Source of the DNA: Candidatus Magasanikiibacteriota bacterium
GTDB lineage: Bacteria; Patescibacteriota; Patescibacteriia; Magasanikbacterales; UBA922
Reading direction: 5' to 3'
DNA: 37,403 nucleotides
Assembly: GCA_014729395.1 (NCBI GenBank)
Contig: WJJZ01000009.1
Location: 1 to 37,403, forward strand
Under the pieces are notes generated by a model, which did not search any database, was not told the DNA's origin, and worked only from the letters and a program-made list of their open reading frames with translations. How positions within the stretch are numbered: the stretch's first letter is position 1; each line of letters opens with the position of its first letter. The position numbers and the translations under genes were made by a program. This document shows positions 6,389 to 35,583 of the stretch, piece after piece.

Positions 6389-6468
6389 GTTCACAGCCAG
6401 CAGTTCACAATGGATTTATCCAATCCGGTTATGTCTCTTTCTGAGAACTGTTAGCTGCGAACTGTTAT
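6389..6468. repeat. Heptamer repeat with inverted arms (gttcaca-gccagca-gttcaca ... ctgagaa-ctgttag-ctgcgaa-ctgttat)
   Basis: Read by eye as 7-bp words; ends 8 nt from the xer start codon. Confidence 0.75.
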
Positions 6469-6868: not shown

Positions 6869-7327
6869 ATGTTTTATCTTATCCTACCCAACATCAGATC
6901 ATGTCACAATGTCGGCGCCATGTTTAGAACCGCCGATGCTTTTGGCATTAGTAGAATTTTTTTAGTAGGTTATACGGCCAGTCCGCCCAAAATTCAAATT
7001 GACAAAGTCGCGCTTGGTGCGGAAAAATGGGTACCTTGGGAAAAAAGGGAAGATTTGGCGAGTTTAATAAAAGAACTTAAAGAAAAAGGAGTAAAAATAG
7101 TAGCTTTAGAAAAAAATGATAAAAGTATTAATATTTCTTTAACAAAATTTGATGCCCCGCTTGCTTTAATAGTAGGTAATGAGGTGGAGGGGGTTGAACC
7201 GGATATATTAAAAATGTGTGATCAGATCGTGCATATTCCGATGTACGGGAAGAAGGAGAGTTTGAATGTTTCGGTTGCAGCCGGTGTGGCGATGTATGTA
7301 ATAAACAATAATTACACAATAATTTGA
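6869..7327 (+). CDS. TrmH/SpoU family RNA 2'-O-methyltransferase
   Basis: MFYLILPNIRSCHNVGAMFRTADAFGI; LIVGNEVEGVEPDIL; IPMYGKKESLNVSVAAGVAMY. Start placed at ATG 6869, not the ORF-track start in the terminator. Confidence 0.9.
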   Translation: MFYLILPNIRSCHNVGAMFRTADAFGISRIFLVGYTASPPKIQIDKVALGAEKWVPWEKREDLASLIKELKEKGVKIVALEKNDKSINISLTKFDAPLALIVGNEVEGVEPDILKMCDQIVHIPMYGKKESLNVSVAAGVAMYVINNNYTII

Positions 7328-7398
7328 CCATAATTACACAATAATTATTTTAATTATCGTCAAATCATTGTTAAATTATCATATAATTATAGTATTCT
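7317..7398. repeat. 11-mer repeat cluster abutting ATG 7399 and overlapping the 3' end of the SpoU gene
   Basis: acaataattac|acaataatttg|accataattac|acaataattat ... cgtcaaatcat|tgttaaattat|catataattat|agtattct. Confidence 0.8.
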
Positions 7399-14970: not shown

Positions 14971-15051
14971 AAAAATTGGAGACTGGAGATTGGTGATTAG
15001 ATAAACAAAGAAATTGACTTACCAACCTCTAATCACTAGTCTCTAATTTTT
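14971..15051. repeat. Heptamer inverted repeat (attggag-actggag-attggtg-attagat ... acctcta-atcacta-gtctcta)
   Basis: Two inverted arms, AAAAATTGGAGACTGGAGATTGGTGATTAG and CTAATCACTAGTCTCTAATTTTT. Confidence 0.85.
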
Positions 15052-15487
15052 CAATTTTTTTCAGTCTCCGCACATGCCTTTCCTTCTCGCTGAATTCAGT
15101 TTCCAGCCATTTTTTAACAATAGCCATAGAATGTTCTTCAGAAGTGAGTTTAGCTGCCAAGCATAGGATATTAGTTTTGTCATCAGTCATCATGGTTTCG
15201 GCAGCCATCATATTATAACCTATTCCGGCTCTGACACCCTTTACTTTATTTGCGGCTACACAAACTCCTATGCCATTTTTACATATTAAAATTCCTCTTG
15301 AGTCTTCTTCTGCTACTTTTTTTGCCAAGGGAATGGCATAATCGGGGTAGTCATCACCCTCATTATATTTGTAGGGACCCATATCTTCCACTTCAAAATC
15401 GAGCTCATTTTGAAGATAGCGAATTAAGCGTTTTTTTAATTGATACCCTCCGTGGTCAGAGGCGATATATAGGGATCCTTTGTACAT
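15029..15487 (-). CDS. rpiB: RpiB/LacA/LacB family sugar-phosphate isomerase
   Basis: LYIASDHGGYQLKKRL; GILICKNGIGVCVAANKVKGVRAGI. Confidence 0.9.
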   Translation of the reverse strand: MYKGSLYIASDHGGYQLKKRLIRYLQNELDFEVEDMGPYKYNEGDDYPDYAIPLAKKVAEEDSRGILICKNGIGVCVAANKVKGVRAGIGYNMMAAETMMTDDKTNILCLAAKLTSEEHSMAIVKKWLETEFSEKERHVRRLKKIEKLETSD

Positions 15488-17039: not shown

Positions 17040-17211
17040 TCATAAAAGCTTTGATCCCGGCTATCACCGGGGGAGTTGCCGGAAGAAAACCTGTATCATA
17101 GGTAAGTAGAACCGGCCGGGTAAGCCCGTAATCGCTATATTAAGAGCCACTAAGTTGGAAATGAGGTGGTACCGCCCGGATGGGTCCTCATACACTGGTG
17201 GTTTTTGTTTT
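17040..17211 (+). ncRNA. T-box riboswitch leader (ileS, ultrashort stem I type)
   Basis: CTATCACCGGGGGAGTTGCCGGAAGAA (ATC specifier 17063-17065), GTAGAACCGGCCGGGTAAGCCCGTAA, T-box GAGGTGGTACCGC, directly upstream of ileS. Confidence 0.85.
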
Positions 17212-17216
17212 TTATA

Positions 17217-17332
17217 ACTATACTATAATTATACAATAATTTGACGATAATTATACGATAATTTAACAATAATTATTTTTAAATTATGGTCAAATTATAT
17301 TTTAATTATTGTACAATTATTGTTAAATTTTT
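17217..17332. repeat. 11-mer repeat cluster (inverted halves) between T-box and ileS ATG
   Basis: ataattataca|ataatttgacg|ataattatacg|ataatttaaca|ataattatttt ... aaattatggtc|aaattatattt|taattattgta|caattattgtt. Confidence 0.85.
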
Positions 17333-20332
17333 ATGCCCTACAAAGCTAACAAAAATGAAAAAGAAGTCCTAAAATTTTGGGATGAAAATAAAATATTTGA
17401 AAAGTCGGTTGAATCAAAATCAAAGGATGAACCTTATGTTTTTTATGATGGGCCGCCTTTTGCTACGGGTTTGCCTCATTATGGTCATATTGTAGCTTCT
17501 CTTATAAAAGACACCGTACCAAGATTTTGGACAATGCGTGGATATAGAGTAGAGCGTGTTTGGGGTTGGGACTGTCATGGTTTGCCGATTGAAAATATTA
17601 TAGAAAAAGAGCTTGATCTCAAAACCAAGGATGATATTGAAAAATTTGGAATAGCTAAATTCAATGAAGCGGCCAGAAGTAAGGTGCTCATGTATGCGGA
17701 TGAATGGAAGAAAACCGTTCATAGAATGGGACGCTGGGTTGATATGGATAATGCCTACAAAACCATGGATATTGAATATATGGAAAGTATTTGGTGGGTA
17801 TTTAAGCAGCTTTGGGATAAAAAATTGATTTATGAAGGATATAAATCCATGCACATCTGTCCGCGCTGCGTGACGCCACTTTCAAATTTTGAAGTTACAC
17901 AGAATTATAAAGATATAAAAGATATTTCTGTTGTTGCTAAGTTCACAGTTCACAGTGGGCAGTTCACAGAAAAATTGAATTTGGATGGAAATCTATATAT
18001 TTTAGCTTGGACAACAACACCATGGACATTGCCGGGGAATGTTTTATTGGCTGTAGGAGAAGACATTGAATATTTGGTAGTAAATATTGATGGTAAAGAG
18101 GGTTCTTATATTGTTGCGAAAGATAGGGTTGAAGATATTGTGGGCGATGAGAAGTTTGAAGTAAAGAAAGAAATAAAAGGAAGTGAGTTGGTGGGTCTGG
18201 AATATGAACCACTATTTCCATATTTTGCAGATACGGAAAATGCTTTCAGAGTAGTCGCAGCTGATTTTGTGAATACTGAAGAGGGGACCGGTATTGTTCA
18301 TGTGGCACCGGCTTTTGGTCAAGACGATTATGAGCTGGGTCAGCGTGAAGAAACCGGCTGGATTCAGCACGTTACCATGGAAGGAAAATTTACAGAGGAT
18401 GTGTCAGATTTTGCCGGTCAGGAAGTGAAGCCAAAAGATGATCACAGTAAAGCGGACGTGGAGATTTTGAAATGGCTGGCGGCAAATAACAAACTTTTTT
18501 CCAAAATGAAATATGAACATAGCTATCCTCATTGTTGGCGTTGTGATACCCCGCTTCTAAATTACTCAACCGCTTCTTGGTTTGTAAAAGTAACTGATTT
18601 AAAAGAAGATCTGATTGAAAACAACAAAGAAATAACTTGGGTACCGGAACATATTAAAGAAGGTAGGTTTGGGAAGTGGCTGGAGGGAGCGAAGGATTGG
18701 GCGATTTCCAGAAATCGTTATTGGGGAACCCCGTTACCAGTTTGGCGTTGCCAAACTGAAAATCAGAAATCAGAAATCAGAAATCAGAAATTTTGTGATA
18801 ATTTGGTTATTATTGGTTCGGCGGAAGAACTTGAAAAAAGAACTAATCAAAAGGTGGATGACTTGCATAAACATATTGTTGATCAAATGGAATTTGAATG
18901 TGATAAATGCGGTGGCACTATGAAGCGTGTTCCTGAGGTGTTGGATTGTTGGTTTGAATCCGGTTCTATGCCTTATGGACAGATGCATTATCCTTTTGAC
19001 AATAAGCAAAAATTTGAAAAAGGTTTCCCGGCTGAATTTATTGCCGAAGGCCAAGATCAAACTCGAGGCTGGTTTTATACTTTGCATGTTTTGGCGACTG
19101 CCCTAACTCGTGGGAGTGAGCCGTCAATTCCTGTTGGTAGAACCACTTCTTCATTTAAAAATGTAATTGTAAACGGAATAGTATTGGCAGAAGATGGCAA
19201 GAAAATGAGTAAGAGATTACAGAATTACCCGGATCCAATGGAAGTCCTGGAAAAATATGGAGCTGATGCCATGAGATACTATCTCGTTAGCTCACCCGTG
19301 ATGCATGCCGAAAGTCTAAATTTTTCTGAAGAGGGGGTAAGGGAGGTTTATAACAAAGTTTGTAATACCTTGTGGAATGTTTTTAGTTTTTACCGTATGT
19401 TCAGTACCGATTCCACTGATTTAAAAACAGATTATGCGGATTCGGAAAATGTGCTGGATAGGTGGGTTTTGGCGAAATTAAATATTTTGATAAGAGATGT
19501 GACCAAAGGCATGGAAGAATATAAATTGGCGGAAGCCAGCCGACCTATACTTGAATTTGTTACCGAACTTTCTCAATGGTATGTAAGACGTTCGCGTGAC
19601 AGATTCAAAGGTGAAGATGAGAGAGATAAGCAAGCAGCGATTACAACTTTGCGCGAGGTTTTATTGACTCTCTCCAAAGTAATGGCGCCGTTTACCCCTT
19701 TTATGGCTGAGCAGATTTATCAGTATACAGTGGGCAGTTCACAGCCAACAGGGTTTGGTGATTCAGTACACTTGCAAGAGTGGCCGGAGGTGGACAATAG
19801 TAAGATTGATAGTAAAATTTTAAAAGATATGGAAATGGTAAGAAAAATTGTGGAGTTGGGTTTGTCTGCCAGAAAAGATGCTGGTGTAAAGGTGAGACAG
19901 CCTTTGAGTCAATTAGCAATTAACAATGAACAATTAACAAAGGATTTATTGGAGATTATTGCAGACGAACTAAACGTGAAATCCGTAGAGATGATCGACA
20001 GTGCGTCTCAGGGCAAGGACTGGGTTGAAAAAGAGGACGGTAATTTGAAGGTAGCTTTGAATGTAAAAATTGATGAAGAATTAAAGAAAGAAGGTATGGT
20101 ACGGGAGATAGTCAGGGCTATTAATTTAATCAGAAAAGAAAAAGGATATACTATTGATGATAGGATAAAGGTGAGTTATAAGACTTCTGATCCCATGCTT
20201 AGTGTGGTATTGGCTGATTTTAATGATGAAATTTGTAAAGGTGTTTTGGCTGATGAAATAATTGAAGGTGAAGGGGAAAAGGAAGTTGAAGTAAATGATA
20301 GTACTGTGAGTTTGAAAGTGGAGAGTGTTTAA
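17333..20332 (+). CDS. ileS: Isoleucyl-tRNA synthetase
   Basis: PPFATGLPHYGHIVAS; WGWDCHGLPIE; AWTTTPWTLPGNVLLAVG; KMSKRLQNYPDP. Confidence 0.97.
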   Translation: MPYKANKNEKEVLKFWDENKIFEKSVESKSKDEPYVFYDGPPFATGLPHYGHIVASLIKDTVPRFWTMRGYRVERVWGWDCHGLPIENIIEKELDLKTKDDIEKFGIAKFNEAARSKVLMYADEWKKTVHRMGRWVDMDNAYKTMDIEYMESIWWVFKQLWDKKLIYEGYKSMHICPRCVTPLSNFEVTQNYKDIKDISVVAKFTVHSGQFTEKLNLDGNLYILAWTTTPWTLPGNVLLAVGEDIEYLVVNIDGKEGSYIVAKDRVEDIVGDEKFEVKKEIKGSELVGLEYEPLFPYFADTENAFRVVAADFVNTEEGTGIVHVAPAFGQDDYELGQREETGWIQHVTMEGKFTEDVSDFAGQEVKPKDDHSKADVEILKWLAANNKLFSKMKYEHSYPHCWRCDTPLLNYSTASWFVKVTDLKEDLIENNKEITWVPEHIKEGRFGKWLEGAKDWAISRNRYWGTPLPVWRCQTENQKSEIRNQKFCDNLVIIGSAEELEKRTNQKVDDLHKHIVDQMEFECDKCGGTMKRVPEVLDCWFESGSMPYGQMHYPFDNKQKFEKGFPAEFIAEGQDQTRGWFYTLHVLATALTRGSEPSIPVGRTTSSFKNVIVNGIVLAEDGKKMSKRLQNYPDPMEVLEKYGADAMRYYLVSSPVMHAESLNFSEEGVREVYNKVCNTLWNVFSFYRMFSTDSTDLKTDYADSENVLDRWVLAKLNILIRDVTKGMEEYKLAEASRPILEFVTELSQWYVRRSRDRFKGEDERDKQAAITTLREVLLTLSKVMAPFTPFMAEQIYQYTVGSSQPTGFGDSVHLQEWPEVDNSKIDSKILKDMEMVRKIVELGLSARKDAGVKVRQPLSQLAINNEQLTKDLLEIIADELNVKSVEMIDSASQGKDWVEKEDGNLKVALNVKIDEELKKEGMVREIVRAINLIRKEKGYTIDDRIKVSYKTSDPMLSVVLADFNDEICKGVLADEIIEGEGEKEVEVNDSTVSLKVESV
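17941..17970. repeat. Intragenic heptamer repeat gttcaca-gttcaca-gtgggca-gttcaca in ileS
   Basis: Same words as the intergenic repeat at 6389 and the ileS site at 19727. Confidence 0.85.
18760..18790. repeat. Intragenic heptamer repeat (aatcaga)x4 in ileS
   Basis: aatcagaaatcagaaatcagaaatcagaaa, encodes ENQKSEIRNQK. Confidence 0.95.
19722..19755. repeat. Intragenic heptamer repeat gtataca-gtgggca-gttcaca-gccaaca in ileS
   Basis: 18-nt acagtgggcagttcacag identical to 17952-17969 but in another reading frame. Confidence 0.85.
19910..19944. repeat. Intragenic heptamer repeat caattag-caattaa-caatgaa-caattaa in ileS
   Basis: Four 7-bp units read directly; encodes QLAINNEQLTK. Confidence 0.9.
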
Positions 20333-22942: not shown

Positions 22943-24229
22943 ATGAACAGAACAAAAATAGAATTACTAGCTCCGGCAGGTAGTATTGAAAAAATGCGTT
23001 ATGCCTTTGCCTATGGTGCGGACGCGGTATATATGGGAATACCGGATTTTAGTTTACGAGTTAGGATAAATAATTTTACATTGGACACGGTAGAGCAAGC
23101 AATTAAAGAAGCACATGATCTGGGCAAGAAAATTTATGTGACGATAAATATATATGCCCACAACGAACATTTGAAAAACCTGCCTGATTATTTGAAAAAA
23201 TTAAAAAAAATGAAACCGGATGCTTTTATTATATCTGATCCCGGTGTAATGCAATTTGCCAAAAAATATGCCGGCCAAATTCCAATCCATGTATCCACAC
23301 AAGCTAATGTTACCAATTGGTCGGCTGCTAAATTTTGGCACAGCCAAGGAGTGGAGAGAGTAATACTCGGCAGGGAAGTGTCAATAGAAGAAATAAAAGA
23401 AATACATGAAAAAGTACCGGAATTGGAACTGGAGCATTTTATCCATGGCGCTATGTGTATGAGCTATTCGGGTCGTTGTATGCTTAGTTCTTGGCTTACG
23501 GGTAGGTCGGCAAACTTGGGAGATTGTGCTCAGCCCTGCCGTTGGAAGTATTCTCCACAATTAGCCGAGCACCATGTTTTAAGTGCAGAGGTGGAAGAAC
23601 CGTTGCGTCCGGGAGTTAAAATACCGGTGGAAGAAGACAAAAATGGTACCTATATTTTCAATTCCAAAGATATGTGTATGATAGAATATTTGCCGGAAAT
23701 GATAGAAACCGGTCTTGTGAGTTTTAAAATTGAGGGGAGAGCGAAAAGTCCTGCTTATTTGGCAAGTGTTGTAAAAGCATATAGACAAGCCTTTGATATG
23801 TTAGAGGGTGAAATAGACAAAAAGAAAGCCAAGAAGAAATTAAAGAAAATAAAAAAAGAAATCTTAGACAAATTGGTTCATCGAGGTTATACGACCGGCT
23901 TTGCTTTTGGTAAAGAGTCAGTAGAACAAAATATTGATAATAGCCATATTGGTGGGGAAGAGCAATTTGTGGGAGAAGTGCTGAACTGTAAAAAACATGA
24001 TAAAAACTATTTGGTTAAAATCAGACCACACAATGCTATTAAACTTGGTGATGAACTAAGAATCATGCGGCCTAAAAGTGAAGATGTTCGGTTAACTATT
24101 AAAAACATGTATAATGAGAAGGGAGAAGAGATTGAAAGCGGACACGGGGGTGCGGGGAAGAATGTTGTATTAGAGTTGGATAGAGGGGTGGAGGAGTTTG
24201 GGATTGTATTTAAGAATTTGGAATTATAA
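22943..24229 (+). CDS. Peptidase U32 family protein
   Basis: IELLAPAGSIEKMRYAFAYGADAVYMG; HGAMCMSYSGRCMLSSWLTGRSANLGDCAQPCRW. Start set at ATG 22943 because the earlier ORF start lies in the palindromic repeat. Confidence 0.93.
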   Translation: MNRTKIELLAPAGSIEKMRYAFAYGADAVYMGIPDFSLRVRINNFTLDTVEQAIKEAHDLGKKIYVTINIYAHNEHLKNLPDYLKKLKKMKPDAFIISDPGVMQFAKKYAGQIPIHVSTQANVTNWSAAKFWHSQGVERVILGREVSIEEIKEIHEKVPELELEHFIHGAMCMSYSGRCMLSSWLTGRSANLGDCAQPCRWKYSPQLAEHHVLSAEVEEPLRPGVKIPVEEDKNGTYIFNSKDMCMIEYLPEMIETGLVSFKIEGRAKSPAYLASVVKAYRQAFDMLEGEIDKKKAKKKLKKIKKEILDKLVHRGYTTGFAFGKESVEQNIDNSHIGGEEQFVGEVLNCKKHDKNYLVKIRPHNAIKLGDELRIMRPKSEDVRLTIKNMYNEKGEEIESGHGGAGKNVVLELDRGVEEFGIVFKNLEL

Positions 24230-24318
24230 ATTTTGAATTTTGAATCAATTTTAAATTCATTAATTAAATAATTAAGAATTCAATCAAAATTTTAAACTCA
24301 AAATTCGAAATTCTACAT
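24214..24318. repeat. 15-unit heptamer palindromic repeat abutting ruvA ATG
   Basis: gaatttg|gaattat|aaatttt|gaatttt|gaatcaa|ttttaaa|...|tcaaaat|tttaaac|tcaaaat|tcgaaat|tctacat, 105 nt. Confidence 0.88.
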
Positions 24319-31165: not shown

Positions 31166-31300
31166 AGAAAGTTTATACAAATTTTATCTTTTTGTTTTTG
31201 ACCAGCTTAGGTATGTAACGATATAATATTAATGTGTGTGCAAAGTATAAGAGAAACAGGAAGAATGTCATCCACTCCTTTCGGCCATAACTAACTTAAT

Positions 31301-31380
31301 GTCATTCCCGCGAAGGCGGGAATCTAGGCATAGGACGTATAACATACTTAATTCTGGATTCCCGCCTTCGCGGGAATGAC
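31301..31380. repeat. REP-like inverted repeat pair (24-bp perfect arms)
   Basis: GTCATTCCCGCGAAGGCGGGAATC (31301-31324) and exact reverse complement (31357-31380). Confidence 0.95.
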
Positions 31381-31386
31381 AAAACA

Positions 31387-34882: not shown

Positions 34883-34978
34883 CAGCTCACTGGTCAAGAG
34901 TCTTTGCGCCGAAAATGTACCGGGGCTAAGTGGTGTACCGAAGTTACGAATTATTGTGTCTCACTAACGTTCGACACT

Positions 34979-35083
34979 GAATTACGAATTAAGAATTATT
35001 AATTTTGATTCAATTTTGAATTATTTAATGATTAAACATTAGAAATTCAATCAAAATTTAAAATTTTAAATTCAAAATTTGAG
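34979..35083. repeat. 15-unit heptamer palindromic repeat inserted in 23S rRNA
   Basis: gaattac|gaattaa|gaattat|taatttt|gattcaa|ttttgaa|ttattta|atgatta|aacatta|gaaattc|aatcaaa|atttaaa|attttaa|attcaaa|atttgag. Confidence 0.88.
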
Positions 35084-35583
35084 TGGCGAGCGATAGCGAG
35101 ACACGATAGTGGTAGAGGAGCATTCCTAACTGCTGTGAAGTCGGATCCGCGAGGACCGGTGGAGCGTTGGGAAGAGAGAATGCAGGCACAAGTAGCAAAA
35201 ACGAGGGTGAGAGTCCCTCGCGCCGAAAGTCCAAGGTTTCCAGGGCAACGTGAATCGTCCCTGGGTTAGTCGATCCTAAGGTGAGGCCGAAAGGCGTAGC
35301 CGATGGAAGAGCAGGTTAATATTCCTGCACTTGGCATAGTTTGTTATGATATGCGTATCTCAAAGGTGTGAGCGTTGTAAGGCTACACGTTTCGCAAGAT
35401 AGAGACCAATCCTTCGGGGGCGGTCAATTTACACTGGAGAGGTATCTAGAAAAGTATTATAACGCTAGGCTATGTCAAACCGTACCGATAACCGACACAG
35501 GTGGACAGGTCGAGAAGACCAAGGCGTACGAGAGAAACATGGTTCAGGAACTCGGCAAAACAGCGGCCGTAATTTCGAGATAA

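Follow-up and report, generated by a model that had tools for sequence, protein, structure and literature searches.

The heptameric STRR arrays of cyanobacteria lie in tolerant loops of conserved genes, in rnpB and the tRNA-Leu intron, as do the arrays described below; the known hosts are RNA genes and intergenic DNA, compared to proteins in the present case. Heptamers are reported to form the most abundant class of long simple sequence repeats (SSRs) in most bacterial genomes, and polymerase slippage has been proposed as their origin (Mrazek 2007, as cited in PMC4679880 and PMC4692102). The heptamers of Xanthomonas and Nostoc, GGGAATC and GGGGA(C/T)T, mostly occur in about four units and up to 26, form G-quadruplexes, and lie mainly between genes, with 7-11% being intragenic (PMC4692102). 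Marine Beggiatoaceae contain direct repeats of TAACTGA in 2 to 6 copies with no known mechanism; within ORFs, these are located at protein ends and give stops in the forward orientation (PMC4679880). Rickettsia palindromic elements represent a different type, with palindromes of ~150 bp that encode conserved peptides (PMC10969869).

The window, the whole stretch of 37,403 nt analyzed here, corresponds to contig C4 in a draft genome of 1.01 Mb. It encodes an isoleucyl-tRNA synthetase (IleS; TIGR00392, 946 bits compared to a cutoff of 621) in one open frame of 999 amino acids, with Patescibacteria MAGs labelled Falkowbacteria or Komeilibacteria as the nearest named relatives. The initial annotation had pointed out four heptamer-repeat segments in this gene, and the period-7 segments are confirmed as real and in frame (Table 1). 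S1 consists of the units AGTTCAC AGTTCAC AGTGGGC AGTTCAC AG and starts in the native K-F codons AAGTTC. S2 lies between two cysteines, forming C-x14-C, where relatives show C-x2/3-C or have lost the pair. S3 is built from CAGTATA CAGTGGG CAGTTCA CAGCCAA CAG. S1 to S3 follow one degenerate pattern, CAGNNNN, and S4 belongs to the CAATTAA family. Tandem Repeats Finder (TRF) detects S2 (100% matches, score 64) and S4 unaided, while S1 was seen by reading the sequence. Upstream of ileS, a palindromic element of 11-nt A/T-rich repeats separates a T-box leader from the start codon.

Table 1. Positions in the window of ileS, its heptamer arrays and other repeat features
Feature	Position	Strand	Description
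ileS	17333-20332	+	isoleucyl-tRNA synthetase
S1	17940-17969	+	AGTTCAC array, 4.3 units, one diverged; encodes KFTVHSGQFTE
S2	18760-18791	+	perfect AAATCAG (=CAGAAAT) array, 4.6 units; encodes ENQKSEIRNQKF
S3	19721-19751	+	degenerate CAGNNNN array in which CAG occurs five times, exactly 7 nt apart; encodes QYTVGSSQPTG
S4	19910-19940	+	CAATTAA array, 4.4 imperfect units, 87% (TRF); encodes QLAINNEQLTK
Intergenic CAGNNNN array of the S1-S3 family	6441-6467	-	CAGTTCGCAGCTAACAGTTCTCAG
Palindromic element	14971-15058		TGGAGAC-type heptamers in left arm, complementary right arm; inverted repeat I11
Intergenic palindromic element	24214-24312		AATTTTG-type heptamer arms; ~20 matches in 768 kb
AATTTTG-type palindromic element in 23S rRNA gene	34976-35082		loop after model position 1218 in the cmscan alignment
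Insertion in 23S rRNA gene	34962-35100		~140 nt
T-box leader, 5' of ileS	17042-17192		53.9 bits, less than the gathering cutoff (93); E 4e-11
Palindromic element of 11-nt A/T-rich repeats	17214-17329		directly 5' of the ileS start codon; further copies of the repeat family at ~552-630, 7305-7395, 8526 and 30559
Dispersed palindrome	31300-31381		TGTCATTCCCGCGAAGGCGGGAATC(C/T)AG...CTGGATTCCCGCCTTCGCGGGAATGACA; each copy has ~24-29 matches in the genome sample

Synonymous recoding with the protein held fixed gives p values of 0.0008 for S1, 0.0008 for S2, and 0.0004 for S4, which rules out the protein sequence as the cause of the periodicity in these three segments. For S3, the value of 0.20 is not significant for a strict tandem repeat. 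The pattern (CAGNNNN)3CAG occurs 14 times at 7-nt spacing in the sample of the own genome (about 768 kb of the 1.01 Mb, taken as stretches), with S1, S2, and S3 all among these matches, compared to 0 occurrences at any of the other spacings tested (4-12). Shuffling the codon order across the entire ileS gene leads to 0.007 runs, compared to 3 observed. In a comparison set of 35 Patescibacteria ileS genes, 16 genes carry a total of 26 period-7 runs, and each of the other periods from 4 to 13 reaches 0 to 5. In a survey of 1.55 Mb of sampled stretches across genomes, arrays with period 7 number 31 in coding and 17 in noncoding sequence, compared to at most 14 and 5, respectively, for any other period. 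The assembly is a draft in 17 contigs, which would leave room for an artefact; however, the recoding, shuffle, spacing, and period tests all contradict chance, the frame remains open despite the arrays, and independent genomes repeat the pattern, so that an origin by chance or misassembly is hardly credible.

Loop lengths in the array regions (the trait columns) were compared between conserved anchors for array-bearing and array-free genes. The S1 loop has a median of 22 residues with an array compared to 17 without (p = 0.004), and the IleS of this genome exceeds the commonest length by 2 residues. The S2 loop comprises 22 residues here compared to 9, a net gain of about 13, and S3 loops with an array comprise 14 compared to 7 (n = 3); the net gain at S3 in the present IleS is about 6. 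The S4 segment shows 18 residues in both groups, and region A, a fifth site near codon 680, is not longer with an array (16 compared to 15). Uniform insertion at all sites is rejected by this comparison. The arrays had been described as four insertions between conserved IleS blocks. Their location between these blocks holds, mostly at variable positions, and S2 and S3 are net insertions. S1 is mostly existing sequence, and S4 is not an insertion, since it aligns without a large gap to the yeast cytosolic IleRS. The net changes in the alignment with relatives do not follow the proposed multiples of 7 nt. An AlphaFold model of IleS, built on 18 sequences with a mean pLDDT of 80, places S2 (residues 477-486) and S3 (residues 802-809) in loops with a pLDDT below 50, and these loops are probably disordered. 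S4 is placed by the model in a strand-turn-helix region with high pLDDT.

The period-7 runs of Patescibacteria ileS genes cluster at the same few sites with differing heptamers. At the S4 site, the ileS genes carry CAATTAA, ACGACTT, ACTTTCG, AATTTTT/AATTTTC, AGTTACC, or GAATTAC in a segment of nearly constant length (17-18 residues; longer in L006 and L037). At the S2 and S3 sites, most relatives are without arrays. In the sister-species pairs L006/L007, L034/L037, and L031/L033, one site holds two different heptamers, which indicates hot spots at which the units turn over. The minimum number of presence changes on a quick ileS tree, which leaves out the trait columns and contains many weak forks, is 4 for S1, 1 for S2, 5 for region A, 1 for region B, 1 for S3, and 5 for S4. 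Genome G056 contains a perfect 4.9-unit AAAGTCA array in region A and a second, length-neutral array within the conserved helix that precedes MAPFTPF, and neither is present in its congeners G054 and G044, which are 83-84% identical. These differences between sister species and between congeners indicate that the arrays are young or repeatedly homogenized and that the sites are old. Among the relatives searched, there is no second genome of the host genus; sister genera differ in their arrays. The IleS of G044 (L237/L238) also features an in-frame insertion of ~30 residues after residue 264, in the editing-domain region, which is absent in congeners and not heptamer coded.

Beyond ileS, the own genome harbors dispersed unit families, namely, CAGTTCA, GTGATAA, TGGAGAC, CAATTAA, AAATCA(G/T), and AATTTTG. 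The number of identical-unit pairs is 20 for an expectation of 1.0, and the sharing of units is more frequent within genomes (3.5%) than between genomes (0.8%; p = 0.001). The array density is 0.020/kb in coding sequence, 0.087/kb in noncoding sequence, and 0.196/kb in ileS. Over 72.5 kb of gyrA, there are 0 arrays, and arrays with a score of at least 12 number 3 in valS and 4 in argS; these counts speak against an equal hazard in all long genes. Coding arrays are found in IleS, LeuS, ArgS, ValS, GltX, MnmA, TrmD, RsmI, UvrA, PolA, and glycosyltransferases. A TGDWRLETGD-like peptide is encoded in several genes of the own genome, and other arrays encode different peptides. In a small sample, with stretches chosen partly for already-known contigs, tRNA and rRNA enzymes account for 8 of 19 carriers (own genome and G031) compared to 1 of 30 genes drawn at random from the own genome with weighting by length (p = 0.001), or 3 of 30 on a generous control count (p = 0.014). 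This apparent enrichment and the recurrence at few sites could point to functional arrays that tune IleS loops or mRNA through contingency, phase variation, or regulation. Such a role is very improbable, as the gain or loss of one unit would shift the frame of an essential gene, the unit sequence is not conserved, and S2 and S3 are low-confidence loops that are array free in most relatives.

Intergenic heptamer copies of the own genome sometimes adopt an array-loop-inverted-array organization, with terminal inverted repeats at several copies. An element of ~130 nt with CAGTTCA arms and a structured core occurs twice, at L206:3051 and L207:17423 (spanning L206:3051-3173 and L207:17294-17430), with 87.5-89% identity. 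The copy of the AATTTTG element in the 23S rRNA gene shows 79% identity over 85 nt with the copy at 24230, and the LeuS array has the unit AATTCAA, which belongs to the family of this element. Together with the unit families common to many loci of the genome, these features are consistent with mobile, MITE-like palindromes that enter genes in frame, with the arrays as their arms and with only one arm kept in the coding copies. This origin is possible but doubtful. The coding arrays are nonpalindromic, with a median folding z-score of -0.5 and no hairpin signal, and a hairpin or palindrome reading of them is rejected by these scores. Flanking sequence is not shared among the coding sites, nor between these and the intergenic copies, and no inverted partner is visible at the coding sites. 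The net length change is often zero at array sites, and sister species differ in the unit at one site. A Y1 transposase was not found in the own genome and is rejected there as the mover. The noncoding arrays as a group show hairpin scores that do not exceed those of noncoding controls.

The insertion that holds the palindrome in the 23S rRNA gene lies in a hairpin loop after Rfam model position 1218, which we take to be helix 45, a known site of intervening sequences. The dispersed palindrome at 31300-31381 resembles dRS3-type ATTCCC-N8-GGGAAT repeats. Genome G021 contains 27 Y1 transposase fragments, mostly at contig ends, and an IS200/IS605-type element therefore seems to break that assembly.

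The distinct units of all genomes agree with a single degenerate consensus more closely than random heptamers do (3.16 compared to 2.58 ± 0.10), and arrays longer than 40 nt do not occur in the sampled stretches, where longer arrays may be hidden by short-read assembly. The consensus, the cap in length, and the genome-specific units would agree with a putative templated writer, e.g., an RNA- or ssDNA-templated polymerase, that deposits genome-specific heptamers. However, the consensus signal is weaker in the 14 noncoding units alone (3.60 compared to 3.27 ± 0.25 in a stop-free control), base composition and stop codon avoidance may contribute to it, and a search covering Y1 transposases provides no candidate enzyme. 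Such a writer is quite improbable. The more general proposal, that an active templating or element-like process writes bounded, genome-specific heptamer arrays at the same tRNA- and rRNA-enzyme sites in this order of Patescibacteria, is unlikely; if true, it would define a new intragenic repeat class distinct from palindromic elements and open-ended microsatellites.

Slippage or template switching in 7-nt steps, followed by selection for tolerant segments, probably explains the arrays best, albeit with considerable doubt. Here, an error of DNA synthesis with a 7-nt step, by nascent-strand slippage or template switching, would generate arrays of ~3 to 5 units from a seed, either native sequence such as the K-F codons at S1 or an existing copy of a heptamer family. 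The same process would also homogenize the arrays and swap their units. Intergenic arrays would be nearly unconstrained, and the survivors in genes would be those that are stop free, frame neutral, and either located in tolerant loops or matched to the local strand-turn pattern. All frames of one strand yield the same cycle of 7 residues from an array, 7 not being divisible by 3. Occasional copying between loci would add to local slippage. We infer this maker, the near-neutrality of its products, and the order of these events.

Several results support this slippage model. The excess is specific to period 7 in the ileS set and in the sampled stretches, sister species hold differing units at one site, and the 4.9-unit array of G056 is missing from its congeners, with a length-neutral array in a conserved helix of the same genome. 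S2 and S3 fall in low-pLDDT loops, the sampled arrays stop at 40 nt, and slippage has been proposed for bacterial heptamers in general. The start of S1-type arrays in native codons argues for local seeding. The order of densities, with noncoding sequence above coding sequence and gyrA at 0, is expected if tolerance sets survival under selection. Local slippage on its own would not account for the excess of identical unit pairs, and the sharing of units between unrelated loci of one genome indicates that sequence must also be copied from locus to locus to some extent. Long arrays would further be expected from slippage, contrary to the observed limit of 40 nt, and the length-neutral S4 and region A require template-switch patches or compensating indels. 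Near-neutrality does not obviously predict the apparent overrepresentation of translation enzymes.

Bacterial tandem repeats favor 7 nt, and variable segments of essential, alignable enzymes are repeatedly rewritten here, so that conserved protein anchors provide a reference for the period-7 footprint of seeds, net length, and unit turnover. The arrays also point to a route for loop evolution in minimal genomes in which repeats at the DNA level impose sequence and the tolerance of the fold acts as a filter, including the length-neutral replacement of a folded segment.

In relation to the systems described above, the arrays show the exact 7-nt units in excess and the dispersed, family-like units of bacterial heptanucleotide SSRs. 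They share degenerate units with a fixed core, dispersal, a usual size of about four units, and frequent inverted pairs with the heptamers of Xanthomonas and Nostoc but differ from these in several unrelated families per genome, a length of at most 40 nt, and the same essential-enzyme sites across the order. Like the TAACTGA repeats of Beggiatoaceae, which by inspection fit the degenerate unit consensus found here, they are heptameric direct repeats with a patchy distribution among lineages; in contrast to the terminal, stop-containing copies of that system, they are internal and stop free. The initial annotation had likened the arrays to Rickettsia palindromic elements. This likeness is general only, in that unrelated genes with essential or metabolic roles tolerate selfish-looking repeat DNA in their reading frame, here those of IleS, LeuS, ArgS, MnmA, RsmI, TrmD, and UvrA, among others, with net insertion at some sites only. 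The arrays are not Rickettsia palindromic elements: in ileS, they are tandem heptamers of 30-32 nt, nonpalindromic in genes, without a hairpin or conserved flanks, and lineage specific, with a unit that differs per genus. The part of the literature covered contains no report of heptamer arrays in Patescibacteria, coding genes included, or of heptamer arrays that recur in frame at internal positions of essential enzymes. The overabundance of heptamers in bacteria and their dispersed four-unit families are known, and the new feature is the recurrent in-frame residence of such arrays in essential enzymes.
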